A stretch of DNA of 24,408 bases from a virus. Of this stretch, positions 4,318 through 22,068 are shown one piece after another. The translations under genes and the position numbers were made by a program. Under the pieces are notes generated by a model, which had not been told where the DNA came from, searched no databases, and worked only from the letters and a program-made list of their open reading frames with translations. Positions within the stretch are counted from its first letter, which is position 1, and every line of letters starts with the position of its first letter. The DNA is taken from IMG/VR virus record IMGVR_UViG_3300032084_001315, positions 1-24,408 of that record, one strand, 5' to 3'.

Positions 4318-5967
4318 TTATGATATATTTTTGTTGTAATTAGTTGAAACCGCAAATAATTCTTTAAAATCATTTGTGAGTACTTTTATTCTTATTTTCA
4401 TAAAGAAACCTTTTATACCTGAAATACTTTCACCAAAAACAACTTCATTGGCTGCCGCTGATGAAGTGTTAACTATATTAGAAAAATATTTATTATGTAG
4501 TTTTTGAAATGCAGATATAATCAAATCTTGGTTGCTTACATCGTAATTCGCGATATTGGCTGCAGTATCTGTGTCAGTCTCTATATCTGTAGCACTCCAA
4601 CCACTACTACCTTCATAGCTCAAAGTCAAAAAGTTTTTACTTATTGAAGGATTGTTATTAAAAATAAATTCTATTGTGGAATTATCTTGAATTCCATGAA
4701 AAGTATTTACGATGCTATTCGTATAATGTTTCCAAATAGCCGATACACTTGATGTTGTGGGCTTAAATGTATAAAAATTGCTATCTATACTACCTCCATT
4801 ACCTCTAGAGCAATAAGAGAAAAAGGAAGTCCAGCCATTGTTACCATCATCAAAAGCTACTGAAAATTCATTTTCACCTTTAATAATAGGTTGCGAATTA
4901 AGCCTAGTAAATGTATTGTCAATTTCTGATACAGCTATATTGTCTATTGTTATAGTAGTAGGATCTGTTTTTCTTTCTATTTTTAAATCAGTAGTGAAAG
5001 CTTCTACATCAATAAAAAACCTACCTATAGAGGTGGTTAAATCAGTTCCTCCACTATCATTTACGCCTACGAAAGGTATTCTTAATCTACCTGTTGTATA
5101 AGATCTTATTTGATAGTATATTCTGTAAGTTTTGCCTATTTCAAAAACATTGCTCTGAGTTATACTAGTGACAGCGTCAGTGTCTGTATTTAAAAAAGCA
5201 GCACCATCACTACTCACTGTTACATCATTAACTAATGTCCAATTATTACTTCCATCATAAAAGTCACCATTAATGACCAAATCTTCGCCTTGTACGGATA
5301 ATAGGTATTTTTTATCATACATATCCCACATGCCATACAAATTTACAGCTTTTGTTAAGTTTTTTCTAAAAAAACTACGCATTCCATAATTTGATATTTC
5401 CGTAATACCATCTCTAGATAATCTCAATACAGCACCTTTAGCTTTGTCGGTAAAGTATTTACGTCCTGCATAATAAGCAAAACTTTCAGGATTTTTACTT
5501 ATACCATAATCTCCTGCATAAGAGTTGACTTGATTAAAAAATTCACTACCAGATGTAGTTAGATTACCTCCTTGAGCTGTAAAAATAGCGTTTTTATTTA
5601 CTAATACAAAAGATACCTTTTCTTCCTGGAAAACCAATAAATTTGTATCTTCAGCAAACAATTTTTGAATGCTACCTTTTCCGTTTGCTATATTTTTTCT
5701 AATAGGATTTGCTAAAGAAAACTGATTTATATTATTTACACCAGTAAATTCGTTATATAAACCAGAAGCAACTAAATCTTCTTCTAAATTTTCTTCCGTA
5801 AAATCTGGATTAACAAGATATGCTTTTACCCCTAAATCAATAAAATCATCATTAAAGCCGCCTTTTATACGCGACTCTTCAATATGCCATTGGCCTCCTA
5901 AAGATTGAGGTTTATCACCTTTAACTATAAGCGTATTAAAATACTTAACTCCTATTATTTTAGCCAT
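4318..5967 (-). CDS. Tail stabilization (hub) protein, C-terminal portion, with carbohydrate-binding-like insertion (549 aa)
   Basis: Residues ~25-226 (HIEESRIKGGFND..., GSIQKLFAEDTNLLVFQEE..., YGISKNPESFAYYAGRKYF) and ~355-549 (GWTSFFSYCSRGNGG..., NSTIEFIFNNNPSISKN) correspond, from memory, to the C-terminal half of one large stabilization or tail-hub protein in related marine phages. The insert at residues ~228-350 begins VINGDFYDGSNNWT and ends TIDNIAVSEI, the usual start and end of a CBM4/9-type jelly roll. The preceding 1176-aa gene ends 34 nt upstream and looks like the N-terminal half of the same protein. An in-frame TAA lies between this ATG and that gene, so a single simple frameshift does not join them. 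The protein probably sits at the tail tip or hub. Family recall, not a search, supports this. Confidence 0.7.
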   Translation of the reverse strand: MAKIIGVKYFNTLIVKGDKPQSLGGQWHIEESRIKGGFNDDFIDLGVKAYLVNPDFTEENLEEDLVASGLYNEFTGVNNINQFSLANPIRKNIANGKGSIQKLFAEDTNLLVFQEEKVSFVLVNKNAIFTAQGGNLTTSGSEFFNQVNSYAGDYGISKNPESFAYYAGRKYFTDKAKGAVLRLSRDGITEISNYGMRSFFRKNLTKAVNLYGMWDMYDKKYLLSVQGEDLVINGDFYDGSNNWTLVNDVTVSSDGAAFLNTDTDAVTSITQSNVFEIGKTYRIYYQIRSYTTGRLRIPFVGVNDSGGTDLTTSIGRFFIDVEAFTTDLKIERKTDPTTITIDNIAVSEIDNTFTRLNSQPIIKGENEFSVAFDDGNNGWTSFFSYCSRGNGGSIDSNFYTFKPTTSSVSAIWKHYTNSIVNTFHGIQDNSTIEFIFNNNPSISKNFLTLSYEGSSGWSATDIETDTDTAANIANYDVSNQDLIISAFQKLHNKYFSNIVNTSSAAANEVVFGESISGIKGFFMKIRIKVLTNDFKELFAVSTNYNKNIS

Positions 5968-6001: not shown

Positions 6002-9000
6002 TTATGTTGTACAGTTTGCTGGTGCAACCTGCCATGAACCTGTTCCTCCTGTAGCGACCCAATAACCTGTCTTTGATCCATCTGTAGCCGCGTACCAACC
6101 TGTTGTTGCAAATCTTTGCAATTGTTCATTACCATACATTTGAACAGCACTTGATAACGCAGTACCATTAGATTCAGTGTGATAAACTGTAACTGTATCA
6201 GTAAATTCGCCTAAAGTAAATCCTTGACAAGCCTGAGCTGTTGAATTATATGTTGATAACGTACTTCCTGGATTAAGTTTCAAAGTAGTCGAACCAACCG
6301 CACTAGCTAATATTGTAGCTACGGTTTGGCTATTTGTTATTGTAAATGATAAAGTAGTACCATTAGCAACTTGTTGTGATAATGTTGCGCCCGTGACTGT
6401 AATTATAGCTCCATTGATAGCAGAAACTGTTACTCCTGCAGGTACTAAATCACCAACAACTAATTGACCAATTTGTATATTACTATTACTAGCTGATAAT
6501 GTAATTTGAAACTCTCCAGCTGTGTGGCCACTAGTAGCTACTGTAGAAGTAGTTACAATAGAAGTACCGGCTGCATTGTCAGTAGCTTTAAAATTTATAG
6601 CTATTTCTTCACCTCCTGAGTATGAGTTTAGATTACTTTTAGTTTTTAAATTAACAGTACCAGAATTTGCAGTAAATGTATCTAGTTCAAAAGGTAAAGG
6701 TGTATGGTCTAATGGATCCCCATTTATCATTCTTGAAGAATCTATTGAAAAAGTGGTACCCTGTGTAGTAACGGCAGCGTCTCCATTATCACCTGTTATT
6801 GAGCCAGTTATTACAGTACCTGTACTAGCAGTTCTAATTACAGAAAAGTCACTTAAAGCGGTTATATTTGCTGTATTGTTGTTGACAGTAAATGTTATAC
6901 TGGAAGAATTTACTGTTGTTCCTGCAAATACTCCTCTAAAGACTGCTATATAATCATTTTGACCTGTAAAAGTTAATGTAACGCCGCTGTTTATAGTGCC
7001 TGATCCACTTCTGCTTATCGTAGTACCGCTAATAGCAGTTACAACACCATAGCTAGTACCACCATCAGAAATAGCTTGTCCTACTTGTATTAAAGAATTG
7101 GCATCGACTATATCAAAATTATTAGTACCGGAAGAAGACCCATCAGTTACAGCCGTAGTAGTTGAAACATGCGTGAATGTACTTTTTGTTCTAAGTTTAT
7201 AACAACCATCTACATCATCAAAATAAACTTCAAATTTACTACTTACATCTTGGCCACCACAAGTCATAGAGTTAAGCGTTATAACAGTTGTAGGAACAAT
7301 AACAGTATCATCTTTAGCTTTTACGCAAACTACATCACTATTGGAAACTAAATTTTCTTTAAAACCAAAAGATGTACCTGAACCAGTAGTACCATTTACA
7401 GTCTCTATTGAAATAGTATCTATAACAAGCTCACCATTTGTACTATTTAAATCAGAAACTAGCCCTGTAGTAGGTGTTTCATAAAATAAATCTAATACCG
7501 ATTCAAATGGTTCTGTTTCAAAAACACTTAAAGTAGGGGTATAAGAAGGAGCATCTACACCAATAGGTTCATCATTCGTATCTAGTTGAGCAATTAAATG
7601 ATTTTTTTCATGCTCAAAAAATTTATAAGTATAATCACCAATGGTACCGCTATTAGTAAACCCTTGATCGGTTAAAGAACCAATGTCGATTATTCTTGTT
7701 AGTTCATCATCGGATTGTACTATACCTTTAGTATTAACATCTCCATCCTGATTTAATATTTTAGGGAACAACCTTGTATTGCTCGGAGCTGTATTATCAT
7801 TTTCGCTAATATTAGTTAAATCTCTAGGTACTTTATTAATATTATCACCGTATAATGTTAAAAAATCATCTTGTATTAAGTAGCTACTTAAAATTCCTGG
7901 GTTATATACATTATAGTATTCTTGTTGCCTTTGTTGAACTACAACTTTATATGAATAAAAACCTAGGGGATTATTAGTAGCATCGTAAGCATTAGATATA
8001 GTTTGGTTAGTAAAAGTTAAAGTAACTCCACTACCTATAGTCTGTGCAGTAGTTAAGGTGAGAGTTGTACTAGATATACTTTCAACTTCAGCTAGTCCAG
8101 AAATACCTGTTCCAGTAACTTTTTGACCTTCTTTAATACTTGACAAATTACCGCCACTAGCTAATGTAACTGTTTTTGAATTTGTGCTCGCAGATGCCGT
8201 AGCTTGTGTCACCGATGTTATCGTTTCATTAAACAATATACCTAAATTATCTCCAACCCAATTAGTCGAATCAAATAAAGCTGGCTTTGCAAAAGTTTCT
8301 ATTGTTGCATTACCAGAAGTGGGTAATATTACAGGTGTAGACCTTCCAAAATAATCAGATAAAACTATACCAACTTTATATTCTCTTCTTTGTTTTATAG
8401 ATAACTGCGGGTTAAAAGAACTAGTGCTGTCATCAACTCTTGCATTTATAATTGGTGTATAATCTATTTTAGGTAGTTTAAAACCTTTAGTTATATTGCC
8501 ATATACTAGTCTATTGCCAATAAATTCCTGGGCCTTTGCTTTTCTAGGTACATCATCAAAAACTCTTAAAGCCTCTTCTTCTGATAAAGTTTGTGTAGGT
8601 AGTTCACTTCTATAAGTATAAACATATTGATTAGAAGTCCAACTAGAATCGTCTATTGCAATAGAGTCTAATACCTTTATAGCAGAACTATTAGCATCTT
8701 TAACTAAAAATTCTATATGTGTTATTTCTAAATCAGTATTAGGTAAAGCTGAGGGTTCGGGTACAGTTAATGTAACTTTATTTATTCTATTAACAACTTT
8801 ATCATTTGTAGTAGTTTGGTAAGCTGCAGTTAATTCTGCGTCAGTCATAACATTATTAGCTGTGCCTTCTGTCCCTATACTAAATGCTATTTCTGTAAAA
8901 GGTGAAATAATAGAGTATTCATTATCCGCAAATTTATATCTATAAGCAAATCTCAAAAATTTATCTTTCATAAATATTGAGGTTATAGTAGTATCGTAGG

Positions 9001-9532
9001 ATAACTCTATTGTAGGTGCTAAATAAGGGCTATATTTTGCTACACTTATTTTAGCTTCATTATTATAAAAAGTGTTGTCAGCTAAAGCTTTTGTTACATT
9101 TATCCTTCTAGGTTGATTTCTATTATCTGAAAAATATAACAAATCACCTATTAAATTTACGGCTGTTATTATACTATTTTTATGAAAGTTTAAAAAAGTA
9201 TTATTTGCATCTGGAACTAACAACGAGGCAGCTGTATCGGGTGTATCTGCATCCCAGACATGTATACGGTGTGCTGTGTTATTTGTTGAAAATACAAATA
9301 TTCTATTATTTCTATTATCAAAAAATGTACCAATAATTTCATAACCAAAAGGTAAACCTAAGGACCCAACAGCTGTTGTGCCTAAAATATTATGGGCTGT
9401 ACCTACATCTGCCGTATCAGATTTAGTAATCTGTATATTTGTAGCATGCCTGTATTCTCCTTCAGGTAATAATCTATCATCTAAAGCTTTATTCATTTTA
9501 GCTTTTAGAAAAGTATTTTTAGCTTCTGGCAT
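6002..9532 (-). CDS. Tail stabilization / hub protein, N-terminal portion (1176 aa)
   Basis: The N-terminus (residues 6-50: NTFLKAKMNKALDDRLLPEG, then TDAVGT-like spacing to NILG) is the hallmark I recall for stabilization proteins of marine and crAss-like podoviruses, thought to close the head-tail junction like P22 gp10. Residues 1-440 look like a WD/propeller-type beta structure (FGYEIIGTFFDNRNNRIFVF). Three copies of a ~65-residue beta module occur near 445-509, 795-858 and 993-1066, each built as I..GQ.v.g....V..I..t..t......G.tLtFt. Other C-terminal parts (690-790, 860-990) are Thr/Ser/Gly-rich beta-sandwich-like. The last ~35 residues (TTGWYAATDGSKTGYWVATG) form a Trp/Gly-rich tail module. 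It begins 4 nt after the 310-aa connector gene and is followed by its likely other half. Confidence 0.75.
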   Translation of the reverse strand: MPEAKNTFLKAKMNKALDDRLLPEGEYRHATNIQITKSDTADVGTAHNILGTTAVGSLGLPFGYEIIGTFFDNRNNRIFVFSTNNTAHRIHVWDADTPDTAASLLVPDANNTFLNFHKNSIITAVNLIGDLLYFSDNRNQPRRINVTKALADNTFYNNEAKISVAKYSPYLAPTIELSYDTTITSIFMKDKFLRFAYRYKFADNEYSIISPFTEIAFSIGTEGTANNVMTDAELTAAYQTTTNDKVVNRINKVTLTVPEPSALPNTDLEITHIEFLVKDANSSAIKVLDSIAIDDSSWTSNQYVYTYRSELPTQTLSEEEALRVFDDVPRKAKAQEFIGNRLVYGNITKGFKLPKIDYTPIINARVDDSTSSFNPQLSIKQRREYKVGIVLSDYFGRSTPVILPTSGNATIETFAKPALFDSTNWVGDNLGILFNETITSVTQATASASTNSKTVTLASGGNLSSIKEGQKVTGTGISGLAEVESISSTTLTLTTAQTIGSGVTLTFTNQTISNAYDATNNPLGFYSYKVVVQQRQQEYYNVYNPGILSSYLIQDDFLTLYGDNINKVPRDLTNISENDNTAPSNTRLFPKILNQDGDVNTKGIVQSDDELTRIIDIGSLTDQGFTNSGTIGDYTYKFFEHEKNHLIAQLDTNDEPIGVDAPSYTPTLSVFETEPFESVLDLFYETPTTGLVSDLNSTNGELVIDTISIETVNGTTGSGTSFGFKENLVSNSDVVCVKAKDDTVIVPTTVITLNSMTCGGQDVSSKFEVYFDDVDGCYKLRTKSTFTHVSTTTAVTDGSSSGTNNFDIVDANSLIQVGQAISDGGTSYGVVTAISGTTISRSGSGTINSGVTLTFTGQNDYIAVFRGVFAGTTVNSSSITFTVNNNTANITALSDFSVIRTASTGTVITGSITGDNGDAAVTTQGTTFSIDSSRMINGDPLDHTPLPFELDTFTANSGTVNLKTKSNLNSYSGGEEIAINFKATDNAAGTSIVTTSTVATSGHTAGEFQITLSASNSNIQIGQLVVGDLVPAGVTVSAINGAIITVTGATLSQQVANGTTLSFTITNSQTVATILASAVGSTTLKLNPGSTLSTYNSTAQACQGFTLGEFTDTVTVYHTESNGTALSSAVQMYGNEQLQRFATTGWYAATDGSKTGYWVATGGTGSWQVAPANCTT

Positions 9533-12078: not shown

Positions 12079-13485
12079 TTACTTAAACAATACAAAGTTA
12101 TTTGCAGCTTGAGTAATTAAACATTTTTCAGATAAAAAGTGAACTTGCATTCTATCAAATCCTTCAGTAGCAGCACCACCTACAGATCCAGTAACCCAAG
12201 ACTTCATTCTTCGATCATCAGCTTCAGAAGCTCTATATCGTACGTGCAAGAAAGGACGACGAATATTTTTACCTAACATTTGATCGTATACAGAAGAAGT
12301 TCCTGCAGGTATTAATACACCTTTGATATCAGAAAATAATCCACGAGTTGCTTGGTTATTCAAGTATTTCCAGTCAGTTTTATAAAAGTCATAAGAACCT
12401 CTACGGAAACCAGAAAAACCTAAATTTAACGCCATATCTTCGCTGTTTTCAAATACACCGAAAGAAGTACCGCCATTATAATTGCTGTTGATTGCACCAA
12501 GGGCATCATCTAAAGTTAAAGCAGCGTCACGATTCAAGAATAACATATTTTCTTCAATTGCACCTTGCTTATCAAGCTCTTTCAATACAAGATCAAAATC
12601 AGCAATTGTATCAGCAGCAGTATCAAATACGTTAGTAGCTACATTACCACGAGCAGTAATAGCTGCGAACATACCTTCAGAACCTTCAATGTTTAAAGGG
12701 TCAAGTTCAGCATGAGTAGCCACTTTCTTTTCAGCTTCAATAAGAGAAGTTTCACAGTAATCTTCAAAACGAGTTCGAGTATCACCTTCAGCTTTCATAT
12801 ACCATAAGTAACCTGTTTGACCAGCTTCACCTGTAACTTCTACCCAACCGATTTGAGAAGCATCTGAACCAGAAACTTCAAATTTATCTTTTAAGATAAG
12901 AGGTCGGTTAGAAAAAGATTGAAAGTTAGGCTCTACAGATCCATCTATTGCGTCAGTACCTTTAGCAAATTCAGAACCATAAACGAATAAACTTACAGTA
13001 TTAGAAGCATTAAGACCAGCGGCTACAAGACCAGTTGCATTAGCATAAGCAGCTACGGTTAAAGTAGTATTATCAGCTGCTACAGCAGTAACGTAACCTT
13101 TAACTACTACACCTGTAGTTTCATCACCTACAGCTACAGTTTGTCCAACGCGAACAGCGTGAGTTCCACTAGAAGCAATAGTAATAACGTTCGTATTACT
13201 ACTATCAGCAGCAAGAGCAGCACCTTTGTAAGATAAATGCAAACGAGCTTGCTCAGACCAGATAACTTGGTCAGATGTCATAGGCATTTCAGCGCCTACC
13301 ATTCTTAAGAATCCAGATACGCTACGGTTTCCGTATCGCTCTACTTCTTGCTCATATAAATCAGGAAGATATTGTTGAGTCCAGTTTACTCCACCAGTGT
13401 GGAAATTTAAATAGTTTTCAGCCAAAGTAACTTTACTCGCATTAGGAGTCAAGTCAGTCGGCGTTGTAAATGTTGCAGTTGCCAT
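12079..13485 (-). CDS. Major capsid protein, HK97-fold-like (468 aa)
   Basis: The length, position after portal and scaffold, and sequence style fit a major capsid protein. The N-terminal arm (residues 1-60, LAENYLNFHTGGVNWTQQYL) is followed by GFLRMVGAEMPMTSDQVIWS, a middle rich in E-loop-like turns, a helical stretch with FEDYCETSLIEAEKK near 240-254, and a C-terminal part with IRRPFLHVRYRASEADDRRM near 408-427. Residues ~98-169 form a beta-rich insertion (ITIASSGTHAVRVGQTVAVG...) resembling modules in the 1176-aa tail protein. The gene looks less AT-rich than its neighbours, as is common for very highly expressed phage genes. It starts behind an A-rich leader with no Shine-Dalgarno sequence and ends at a strong terminator. 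Confidence 0.88.
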   Translation of the reverse strand: MATATFTTPTDLTPNASKVTLAENYLNFHTGGVNWTQQYLPDLYEQEVERYGNRSVSGFLRMVGAEMPMTSDQVIWSEQARLHLSYKGAALAADSSNTNVITIASSGTHAVRVGQTVAVGDETTGVVVKGYVTAVAADNTTLTVAAYANATGLVAAGLNASNTVSLFVYGSEFAKGTDAIDGSVEPNFQSFSNRPLILKDKFEVSGSDASQIGWVEVTGEAGQTGYLWYMKAEGDTRTRFEDYCETSLIEAEKKVATHAELDPLNIEGSEGMFAAITARGNVATNVFDTAADTIADFDLVLKELDKQGAIEENMLFLNRDAALTLDDALGAINSNYNGGTSFGVFENSEDMALNLGFSGFRRGSYDFYKTDWKYLNNQATRGLFSDIKGVLIPAGTSSVYDQMLGKNIRRPFLHVRYRASEADDRRMKSWVTGSVGGAATEGFDRMQVHFLSEKCLITQAANNFVLFK

Positions 13486-19372: not shown

Positions 19373-19638
19373 TTACTTCGTCTTTCAGCAAACCCACCGA
19401 ACTCTTTAACTTTTTCTACTACTTTATTTTCAAGAATATTTTTTTCTTCTTGTATTTTATTTAATATTTCAAAAGCATCAAATATTGCCAGTTTTTTAGT
19501 AGCGGCGGCATTTTTTAATCTATCAGCTGCAACATCATCTTGTGTTTCAACTATAGGTTCTTTAGCTACTTTTACTAGTTCCTCCACTGCTTTTTCTCCA
19601 GCTAGGATTATATTCGATTTCATTTTTGGGATGTCCAT
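19369..19638 (-). CDS. Probable terminase small subunit (89 aa)
   Basis: A short helical protein encoded just before the large terminase, with which it shares ATGA. Residues 35-60 (DVAADRLKNAAATKKLAIFD, then AFEILNKIQEEK) are a conserved-looking helical block that I recall from small proteins before terL in marine phages. The C-terminus is FGGFAERRSK. There is no clear DNA-binding helix-turn-helix, and 89 aa is short for a small terminase, so the assignment rests on context. An alternative start at M6 (19623) is possible. With either start the gene overlaps the end of the 208-aa gene (77 or 62 nt), in another frame on the same strand. Confidence 0.6.
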   Translation of the reverse strand: MDIPKMKSNIILAGEKAVEELVKVAKEPIVETQDDVAADRLKNAAATKKLAIFDAFEILNKIQEEKNILENKVVEKVKEFGGFAERRSK

Positions 19639-20188
19639 AAGTCGCTGTAATGTCTTTAATTTTAATTCTATATAATTTTTTTTCGTCTACTAAAAACTCA
19701 AATTCACTACTGGGTGTAAAGCTAACTAAATCTCCACTATTGATATCTTGTGATTCTAAAAATGGATTGTTTATTTTTATAATACCAAAAAGATCTTTTT
19801 CTTTTTTATTTTCAATAGTATTATCATTATGTATTGGTGCAACAAAACAATAATCAGGTAGCGGCTTCCAGATATTTTTTGATTTTACTAAATATATTTG
19901 GTCTATGCTACAAAAACTATAATCTTCATTTATATAGCTAGAGCTTCTTTTTTGTTTACCACGCACATCATACCATGTTCTAAATACATTATGATGCACT
20001 AAAATAGTGTCGCCTTTATTTACTAAATATTCAAATGCTAAAGGAGCAGAAATTACTTCGGCAAACCTATTAATAAACTTATGGTCTTCGTAACCTGTAT
20101 TTAGTATTAATTTGTTTTTGCCAACACTAATTGTATTATTATATTTTTCACCAATTGGTTTTACTATAAAATTAAAAATAGATCGCAT
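19562..20188 (-). CDS. GroES-like protein with two probable co-chaperonin-type barrels (208 aa)
   Basis: Residues ~5-118 resemble a GroES barrel: FNFIVKPIGEKYNNTISVGK at the start, then a GDTILVHHNVFR segment (59-70) in place of the usual GDKVLF.KYAG, then SIDQIYLVK. A second segment at ~134-182 (GIIKINNPF, INSGDLVSFTPSSEFEFLVD, EKKLYRIKIKDI) repeats the GD-V-F...E...D...Y.I...DI pattern of the GroES C-terminal half. I recall similar proteins annotated as co-chaperonin-like in marine phages. GroES caps GroEL; a phage version could help fold capsid or tail proteins. It starts by TAATG overlap with the 72-aa gene and runs 77 nt into the small terminase gene. The function is inferred. Confidence 0.55.
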   Translation of the reverse strand: MRSIFNFIVKPIGEKYNNTISVGKNKLILNTGYEDHKFINRFAEVISAPLAFEYLVNKGDTILVHHNVFRTWYDVRGKQKRSSSYINEDYSFCSIDQIYLVKSKNIWKPLPDYCFVAPIHNDNTIENKKEKDLFGIIKINNPFLESQDINSGDLVSFTPSSEFEFLVDEKKLYRIKIKDITATYGHPKNEIEYNPSWRKSSGGTSKSS

Positions 20189-20763: not shown

Positions 20764-22068
20764 CTATGTTGTTAAAGAAGTTAATTCTGCATCTGATAAT
20801 GCTTCATCAAAATAAACTAATTGTTTCACTTTTCCTTCAAAGGTATTTCCACCACCACCGGAACGTTCAAAATCAATTTGCGACAACCCTGAAACTGTAA
20901 ACGTAGAAGTATCCGTTGCCCGCTCTACACCGTCAACCCATAAAGCGCTGTCACCAGATTTGAATTTAAATGCAACTTTTGAAAAATCCGTTGAATCTGA
21001 AACCGTATAATTTAAAGATATAACATTTGATCCTGATATTTTTGCAAGAACTGAAATTCGATTTGCCGTTCCTGTATATCTTATAGAAAATCTATTGTTT
21101 GAAGCGCCGTCATTAATTGTAATTTCTTTTGTGCCGTCCTGCTTTGAAACTAAAGATGCAATTTCAACAAATAAAACACCTTCTGTATCACTTATGATAC
21201 TACTACTTCCAGCATCACCACAAACTTCTGCTGATCTTGTTACAGTACTCCCGGTAGTTGGTATATATGAAGTAGGAAAAACAAAATCATCTTTTGCTGT
21301 AGCTTCACATTGTATTCCAAATAAAAATATAAACTCTGTGCCAGCAGCATTAAAATCATTAAAATCATCTGCATTTTGCATTATTAATGATATTGCACCG
21401 TCTACATCTGTTGTAGTTTTAAAATGAATTGAGCATCTGTACCAACCGTTTCCAAAATATTCCATTTTGGGTGAAGCAACATTTTGCGTCGTGCCTACTG
21501 TGCCATTATTCAAATTAAAATTTGCTCTATAATTTAAATCAAATGTATCTGCTCTTAATGATAAATAATCGGCTCCTGTTCCTTTTTTGGCAAAAACTGA
21601 AACGACATTTGTGTTATTTGATACCACTCTTGTATTAAAATACCCAATTCTATGTTTGGAGCTTCCAGCCGTTGCTGTAATCTTTGTCGCATTTGTTGTG
21701 CCGTCTGGTGAAGTAGCATTATTAGCCGTTAAAGTTATGTTACCTTCCGTTGGATTATCTGAAAAAGTAAAAATATCTGCACCGCCGGCGTTTGAAAAGT
21801 CATTTGATTTTGTTGCTGTGTTTGTTGCTTCTGGTTCTAATAGTAAATATCCGCAACCTACATCATCATTAGAATCAACATCATAGTTTATTCTAGGTAC
21901 ATTATTACTTACAGTTTCAATTAAACCATTTTCATTTGTGCGTGTTGCACTTGAAGCTCTAGTAAAATCAAAATCAGCATTTCCGTTTGAGGGAATAACA
22001 CTGTTTAAACTTGAAGTATCATAACCACTTGGAGCCTGTACTATTTTTGCTTTATCTAATAAGCTCAT
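20764..22068 (-). CDS. Receptor-binding / tail spike or fibre protein with LamG-like C-terminus (434 aa)
   Basis: The N-terminal region contains FDFTRASSATRTNENGLIET (residues 33-52) and NNVPRINYD, a common phage spike or fibre start. It is followed by LLLEPEATNTATKSNDFSNA (76-95), which opens a carbohydrate-binding jelly-roll-like domain running to ~265 and including NGWYRCSIHF. Residues ~296-434 look like a concanavalin A/LamG sandwich (GVLFVEIAS..., RFSIRYTG, LWVDGVERA, ending GKVKQLVYFDEALSDAELTS). These domains bind sugars, so the protein probably recognises host surface glycans. No catalytic residues for depolymerase activity are evident. It is encoded upstream of the terminase, apart from the main tail genes, with 51-aa and 114-aa proteins on either side. 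Confidence 0.8.
   Translation of the reverse strand: MSLLDKAKIVQAPSGYDTSSLNSVIPSNGNADFDFTRASSATRTNENGLIETVSNNVPRINYDVDSNDDVGCGYLLLEPEATNTATKSNDFSNAGGADIFTFSDNPTEGNITLTANNATSPDGTTNATKITATAGSSKHRIGYFNTRVVSNNTNVVSVFAKKGTGADYLSLRADTFDLNYRANFNLNNGTVGTTQNVASPKMEYFGNGWYRCSIHFKTTTDVDGAISLIMQNADDFNDFNAAGTEFIFLFGIQCEATAKDDFVFPTSYIPTTGSTVTRSAEVCGDAGSSSIISDTEGVLFVEIASLVSKQDGTKEITINDGASNNRFSIRYTGTANRISVLAKISGSNVISLNYTVSDSTDFSKVAFKFKSGDSALWVDGVERATDTSTFTVSGLSQIDFERSGGGGNTFEGKVKQLVYFDEALSDAELTSLTT

Follow-up and report, generated by a model that had tools for sequence, protein, structure and literature searches.

The window, by which we mean the whole stretch of DNA analysed (24,408 nucleotides), covers a 24.4-kb virus record. 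Its minus strand carries the terminase, portal, capsid, ring-type and muzzle genes. The virus belongs to a marine phage group and is a crAss-related podovirus resembling the Pachyviridae. Judged by capsid and muzzle proteins, the cultured phages closest to it are podoviruses of Cellulophaga and Flavobacterium (Pachyviridae, Elemovirus) and Maribacter phage Panino; the uncultured phage ctfjg026 is likewise among the nearest. The following features are referred to in the text.

12079-13485, minus strand: major capsid protein (MCP), 468 aa, HK97 fold (phrog_13704, E 9e-98; structural matches to the crAss001 MCP)
12970-13236, minus strand: E-loop I-domain, MCP residues 84-172, predicted six-stranded barrel (AlphaFold2 model; present in 150/150 MCPs)
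6002-9532, minus strand: N-terminal part of the tail muzzle (tail-tip) protein, 1176 aa (phrog_14478 positions 2-341, E 1.8e-61)
8012-8194, minus strand: muzzle module 1, residues 447-507, six-stranded barrel (module HMM; AlphaFold2 pLDDT 95)
6968-7144, minus strand: muzzle module 2, residues 797-855 (module HMM E 1.9e-15, the module itself being in the HMM seed)
6344-6529, minus strand: muzzle module 3, residues 1002-1063 (module HMM E 4.3e-15, the module itself being in the HMM seed)
20764-22068, minus strand: tail protein with a C-terminal concanavalin A-like (Laminin_G_3) domain (E 2e-6)
19562-20188, minus strand: match to the phage co-chaperonin GroES family (phrog_13932, E 8e-24), with the terminase gene just downstream

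A GroES-type gene is found at the corresponding place in Maribacter phage Panino. The muzzle is encoded by two genes (4318-5967 and 6002-9532, minus strand); both match phrog_14478 and the second also matches crAss_MUZ_C. The N and C ORFs are separate in 81 loci and form one fused ORF in 15, and the split therefore appears to be characteristic of the group rather than an error. The gene at 4318-5967 carries about 140 extra residues (~233-371) that are missing in the fused relatives, where matches jump from ~233 to 372. By eye, this stretch looks like a beta-rich domain of the carbohydrate-binding type.

The capsid segment singled out by the first-pass annotation, 12979-13194 (minus strand), does encode MCP residues 98-169, and the motif stretches quoted from it are present there. 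An AlphaFold2 model of the MCP was built from 61 sequences. The HK97 core is of low confidence and the mean pLDDT is 63 overall; values rise to 77-90 over residues 81-180. In this region six strands are predicted (85-91, 100-102, 115-121, 127-135, 141-146 and 163-171), giving an insertion with a beta-barrel fold in the E-loop of the HK97-fold protein. The I-domain, residues 84-172, precedes a predicted long spine-like helix at 233-250. Residues 81-169 of the model match the barrel of 2xzo_A with Z 8.3 and rmsd 2.7 over 79.

The segment is a constant part of the capsid protein. We compared 150 distinct MCPs, a set which takes in Elemovirus, Panino and ctfjg026, and every one carries the I-domain segment, never empty and 66-109 aa in length, between the constant flanks EQxRLHxxY (before) and FVYGSEF (after). 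Within it T116, K129, V132, F167, V168 and G170 are near-invariant. Mean identity is 28% in the I-domain and 66% outside it, a difference in keeping with a domain exposed at the surface. I-domain divergence goes in step with divergence elsewhere in the MCP (Mantel rho 0.42, null maximum 0.075). What the analysis itself shows is that the domain is present, that its position is fixed, that a barrel fold is predicted for it and that it co-diverges with the capsid. The earlier proposal of a mobile domain on the shell, which had itself named a constant E-loop element in all relatives as the finding that would speak against it, therefore does not hold: the segment occupies one fixed E-loop site in all 150 proteins and diverges together with the capsid core.

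In structural comparison the MCP model matches the crAss001 MCP in Foldseek (7qof_B, E 3.3e-6) and in VIA-align 2 (7qof_A, Z 10.8, residues 79-468 against 75-498), and from residue 79 through to its last residue it aligns with the Vibrio phage VP1 capsid (9in6_M, VIA-align 2 Z 11.8). For the crAss001 MCP, a beta-barrel insertion in the E-loop has been described at residues 79-180; its role, together with an auxiliary protein, is in shell thickness and stability (PMC10172136). The I-domain of crAss001 gp32 (PDB 7qof) is thus a beta-barrel at the matching E-loop place in a chain that aligns as a whole, but it comprises about 102 residues, as opposed to about 89 here, and shares no detectable sequence similarity with ours. 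None was found between the two MCPs even when profiles were compared (hhalign probability 0.3%), nor did the PDB yield a match when it was searched directly by sequence with the MCP, its profile and the muzzle protein. The crAss001 link therefore rests on a structure model with a low-confidence core. Similar extra, mainly beta-strand domains in the MCPs of Pachyviridae, Pervagoviridae and Crassvirales have been noted in an AlphaFold survey (PMC9855967). The Pachyviridae and Pervagoviridae domain is borne by relatives of the present phage group; the part of the survey drawn on here describes it in general terms, without residue limits or comparison with tail modules.

Since the MCP model aligns with the crAss001 and VP1 capsids and the survey noted similar beta domains, the simplest reading is that the segment is an I-domain. 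We put at about 90% the probability that MCP residues ~84-172 form an I-domain of the kind seen in crAss-like phages: a beta-barrel of six strands that is set into the E-loop of the HK97 fold and that would stabilise the shell through contacts at the outer surface, offer a seat to an auxiliary protein and be inherited, immobile, with the capsid. Its surface location and function are likely by analogy with crAss001. On that model the domain would face outwards at the local three-fold positions of the shell, where it would add wall thickness and stability and would seat an auxiliary capsid protein; it would be passed down with the capsid, with no movement between proteins. No auxiliary capsid protein partner was identified within the window.

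The muzzle modules behave differently from the capsid segment in that their site and number vary between relatives, which bears out what had been suggested of the tail. Module 1 of the window is absent at that site in most relatives (loci L083 and L039, for example, have a gap of 7-9 residues), and in others modules sit around backbone positions 57-110 or 175-187, or past 764. The capsid segment, being fixed, lacks the variable site and the presence or absence that mark the muzzle and tail barrel modules. A model of the muzzle module (residues 442-512; AlphaFold2 pLDDT 95) has six strands. Among the structures closest to it are a phage tail tube and a JBD30 baseplate protein, and it aligns to residues 65-148 of the VP1 capsid (Z 7.4) and to residues 227-347 of the phage P22 coat protein (Z 7.1), whose I-domain is also a six-stranded barrel. 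It matches unrelated barrels as well, namely F1-ATPase and UBA1, and structural searches show the same barrel fold in riboflavin synthase; the Z-scores of its neighbours lie in the range reached by common folds. In BFVD the model matches many tail-fibre and tail-collar proteins, and the top matches mostly have TM 0.65-0.80 with identities of 14-36%; these barrels, unlike the capsid segment, belong to tail proteins. Among solved structures, the six-stranded barrel occurs in capsid and tail proteins of phages as well as in unrelated enzymes. By sequence, the modules gave no usable Pfam match (the best, E 4e-4, was to an unrelated domain in one member) and weak PHROGs matches at most, and module 1 alone found no match by tblastn against phage records.

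The resemblance between the capsid segment and the modules was measured with profiles. A module HMM was seeded with the three modules of the window and extended over ~4000 ORFs of 161 loci, all MCPs being excluded from its building. It matched the window MCP over residues ~91-152 with E 0.049 initially and 0.019 after one round, and in the first two versions the capsid segment was the best non-muzzle match. In later rounds the MCP of locus L007 ranks first (E 0.003-0.016), the window MCP falling at E 0.1-0.3. Composition shuffles of the segment attained its score in 0 of 3000 trials with the first two models and 4 of 3000 with the fifth. The profile-profile comparison that had been proposed as a check gave, with hhalign, a probability of 27% over 30 columns when the segment was taken by itself (E 7e-4, counted for a single comparison) and 5-13%, depending on the alignment, for the whole MCP. 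The MCP nevertheless heads the 14 gene families of the window (E 0.002, the 13 others giving 0.045 or worse). In the reverse direction, an I-domain HMM from the 150 MCPs found no module below E 3.3, so that a significant two-way match was not obtained. The closing 'N.v.LfV' part was left unaligned by the profiles and agrees in position only, as the sixth predicted strand. Of the VGQ-type pattern first seen by eye, what stands is a likeness beyond composition; it is weak between profiles, fails in the reverse search and does not extend to the closing part.

At the level of fold the claim of one module type holds in the AlphaFold models: judged by predicted secondary structure and by the structures that both match, segment and muzzle module are each a barrel of six strands arranged in the same order. 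The I-domain resembles the modules because both use this common barrel, with the pattern 'strand - (I/V)xxGQxV - xV..I/V - TLTV - strand'. The common fold pattern is confirmed; the resemblance exists but is weak.

It is possible, though unlikely in our judgement, that one ancestral phage barrel gave rise in the same lineage to both the capsid I-domain and the mobile muzzle modules, through a copy that once passed between tail and shell, in either direction, and then became fixed in the capsid. The rank of the segment in the first two module HMMs, the absence of equally good shuffles there, its leading hhalign score and the predicted strand order are consistent with such a history. The hhalign probabilities of 13-27% and the empty reverse search argue against it, as do conserved residues specific to the MCP, such as K129 and Y147, which are absent from the modules. 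Barrels of this fold are also present in F1-ATPase, UBA1 and riboflavin synthase, so the resemblance is accounted for equally well by convergence or by a widespread fold of great age; common descent of I-domain and modules is possible but unproven. Somewhat less probable again is a chance likeness of a beta segment rich in V, T, G and A: E-values of 0.02-0.1 and the failed reverse search would allow it, but composition-matched shuffles attain the score seldom or not at all and the predicted strand order matches. The idea that the capsid segment acts as a mobile module on the surface, adhering to mucus or polysaccharide, is highly improbable, for although the segment is probably exposed, evolves fast and looks related to tail modules that are mobile, it is always at one site, is never lost and co-diverges with the capsid core, and the MCP matches no Pfam domain.

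Constancy in all 150 MCPs largely refutes the notion of a mobile, adhesive domain carried by the shell. The adhesive role proposed for the segment is not supported, as no test result favours it and the crAss001 equivalent serves shell thickness and stability (PMC10172136). Judged from sequence, glycan binding would more plausibly be a property of the tail protein at 20764-22068 (minus strand) than of the capsid segment.

The capsid barrel domain fits the crAss001 I-domain and the Pachyviridae beta domain, both described before. The apparent sharing of a domain between shell and tail is closed as a lead, the capsid part being a standard structural insertion. What stays useful is that the barrel modules of the tail tip shift in site and number between relatives, whereas the barrel of the shell does not.
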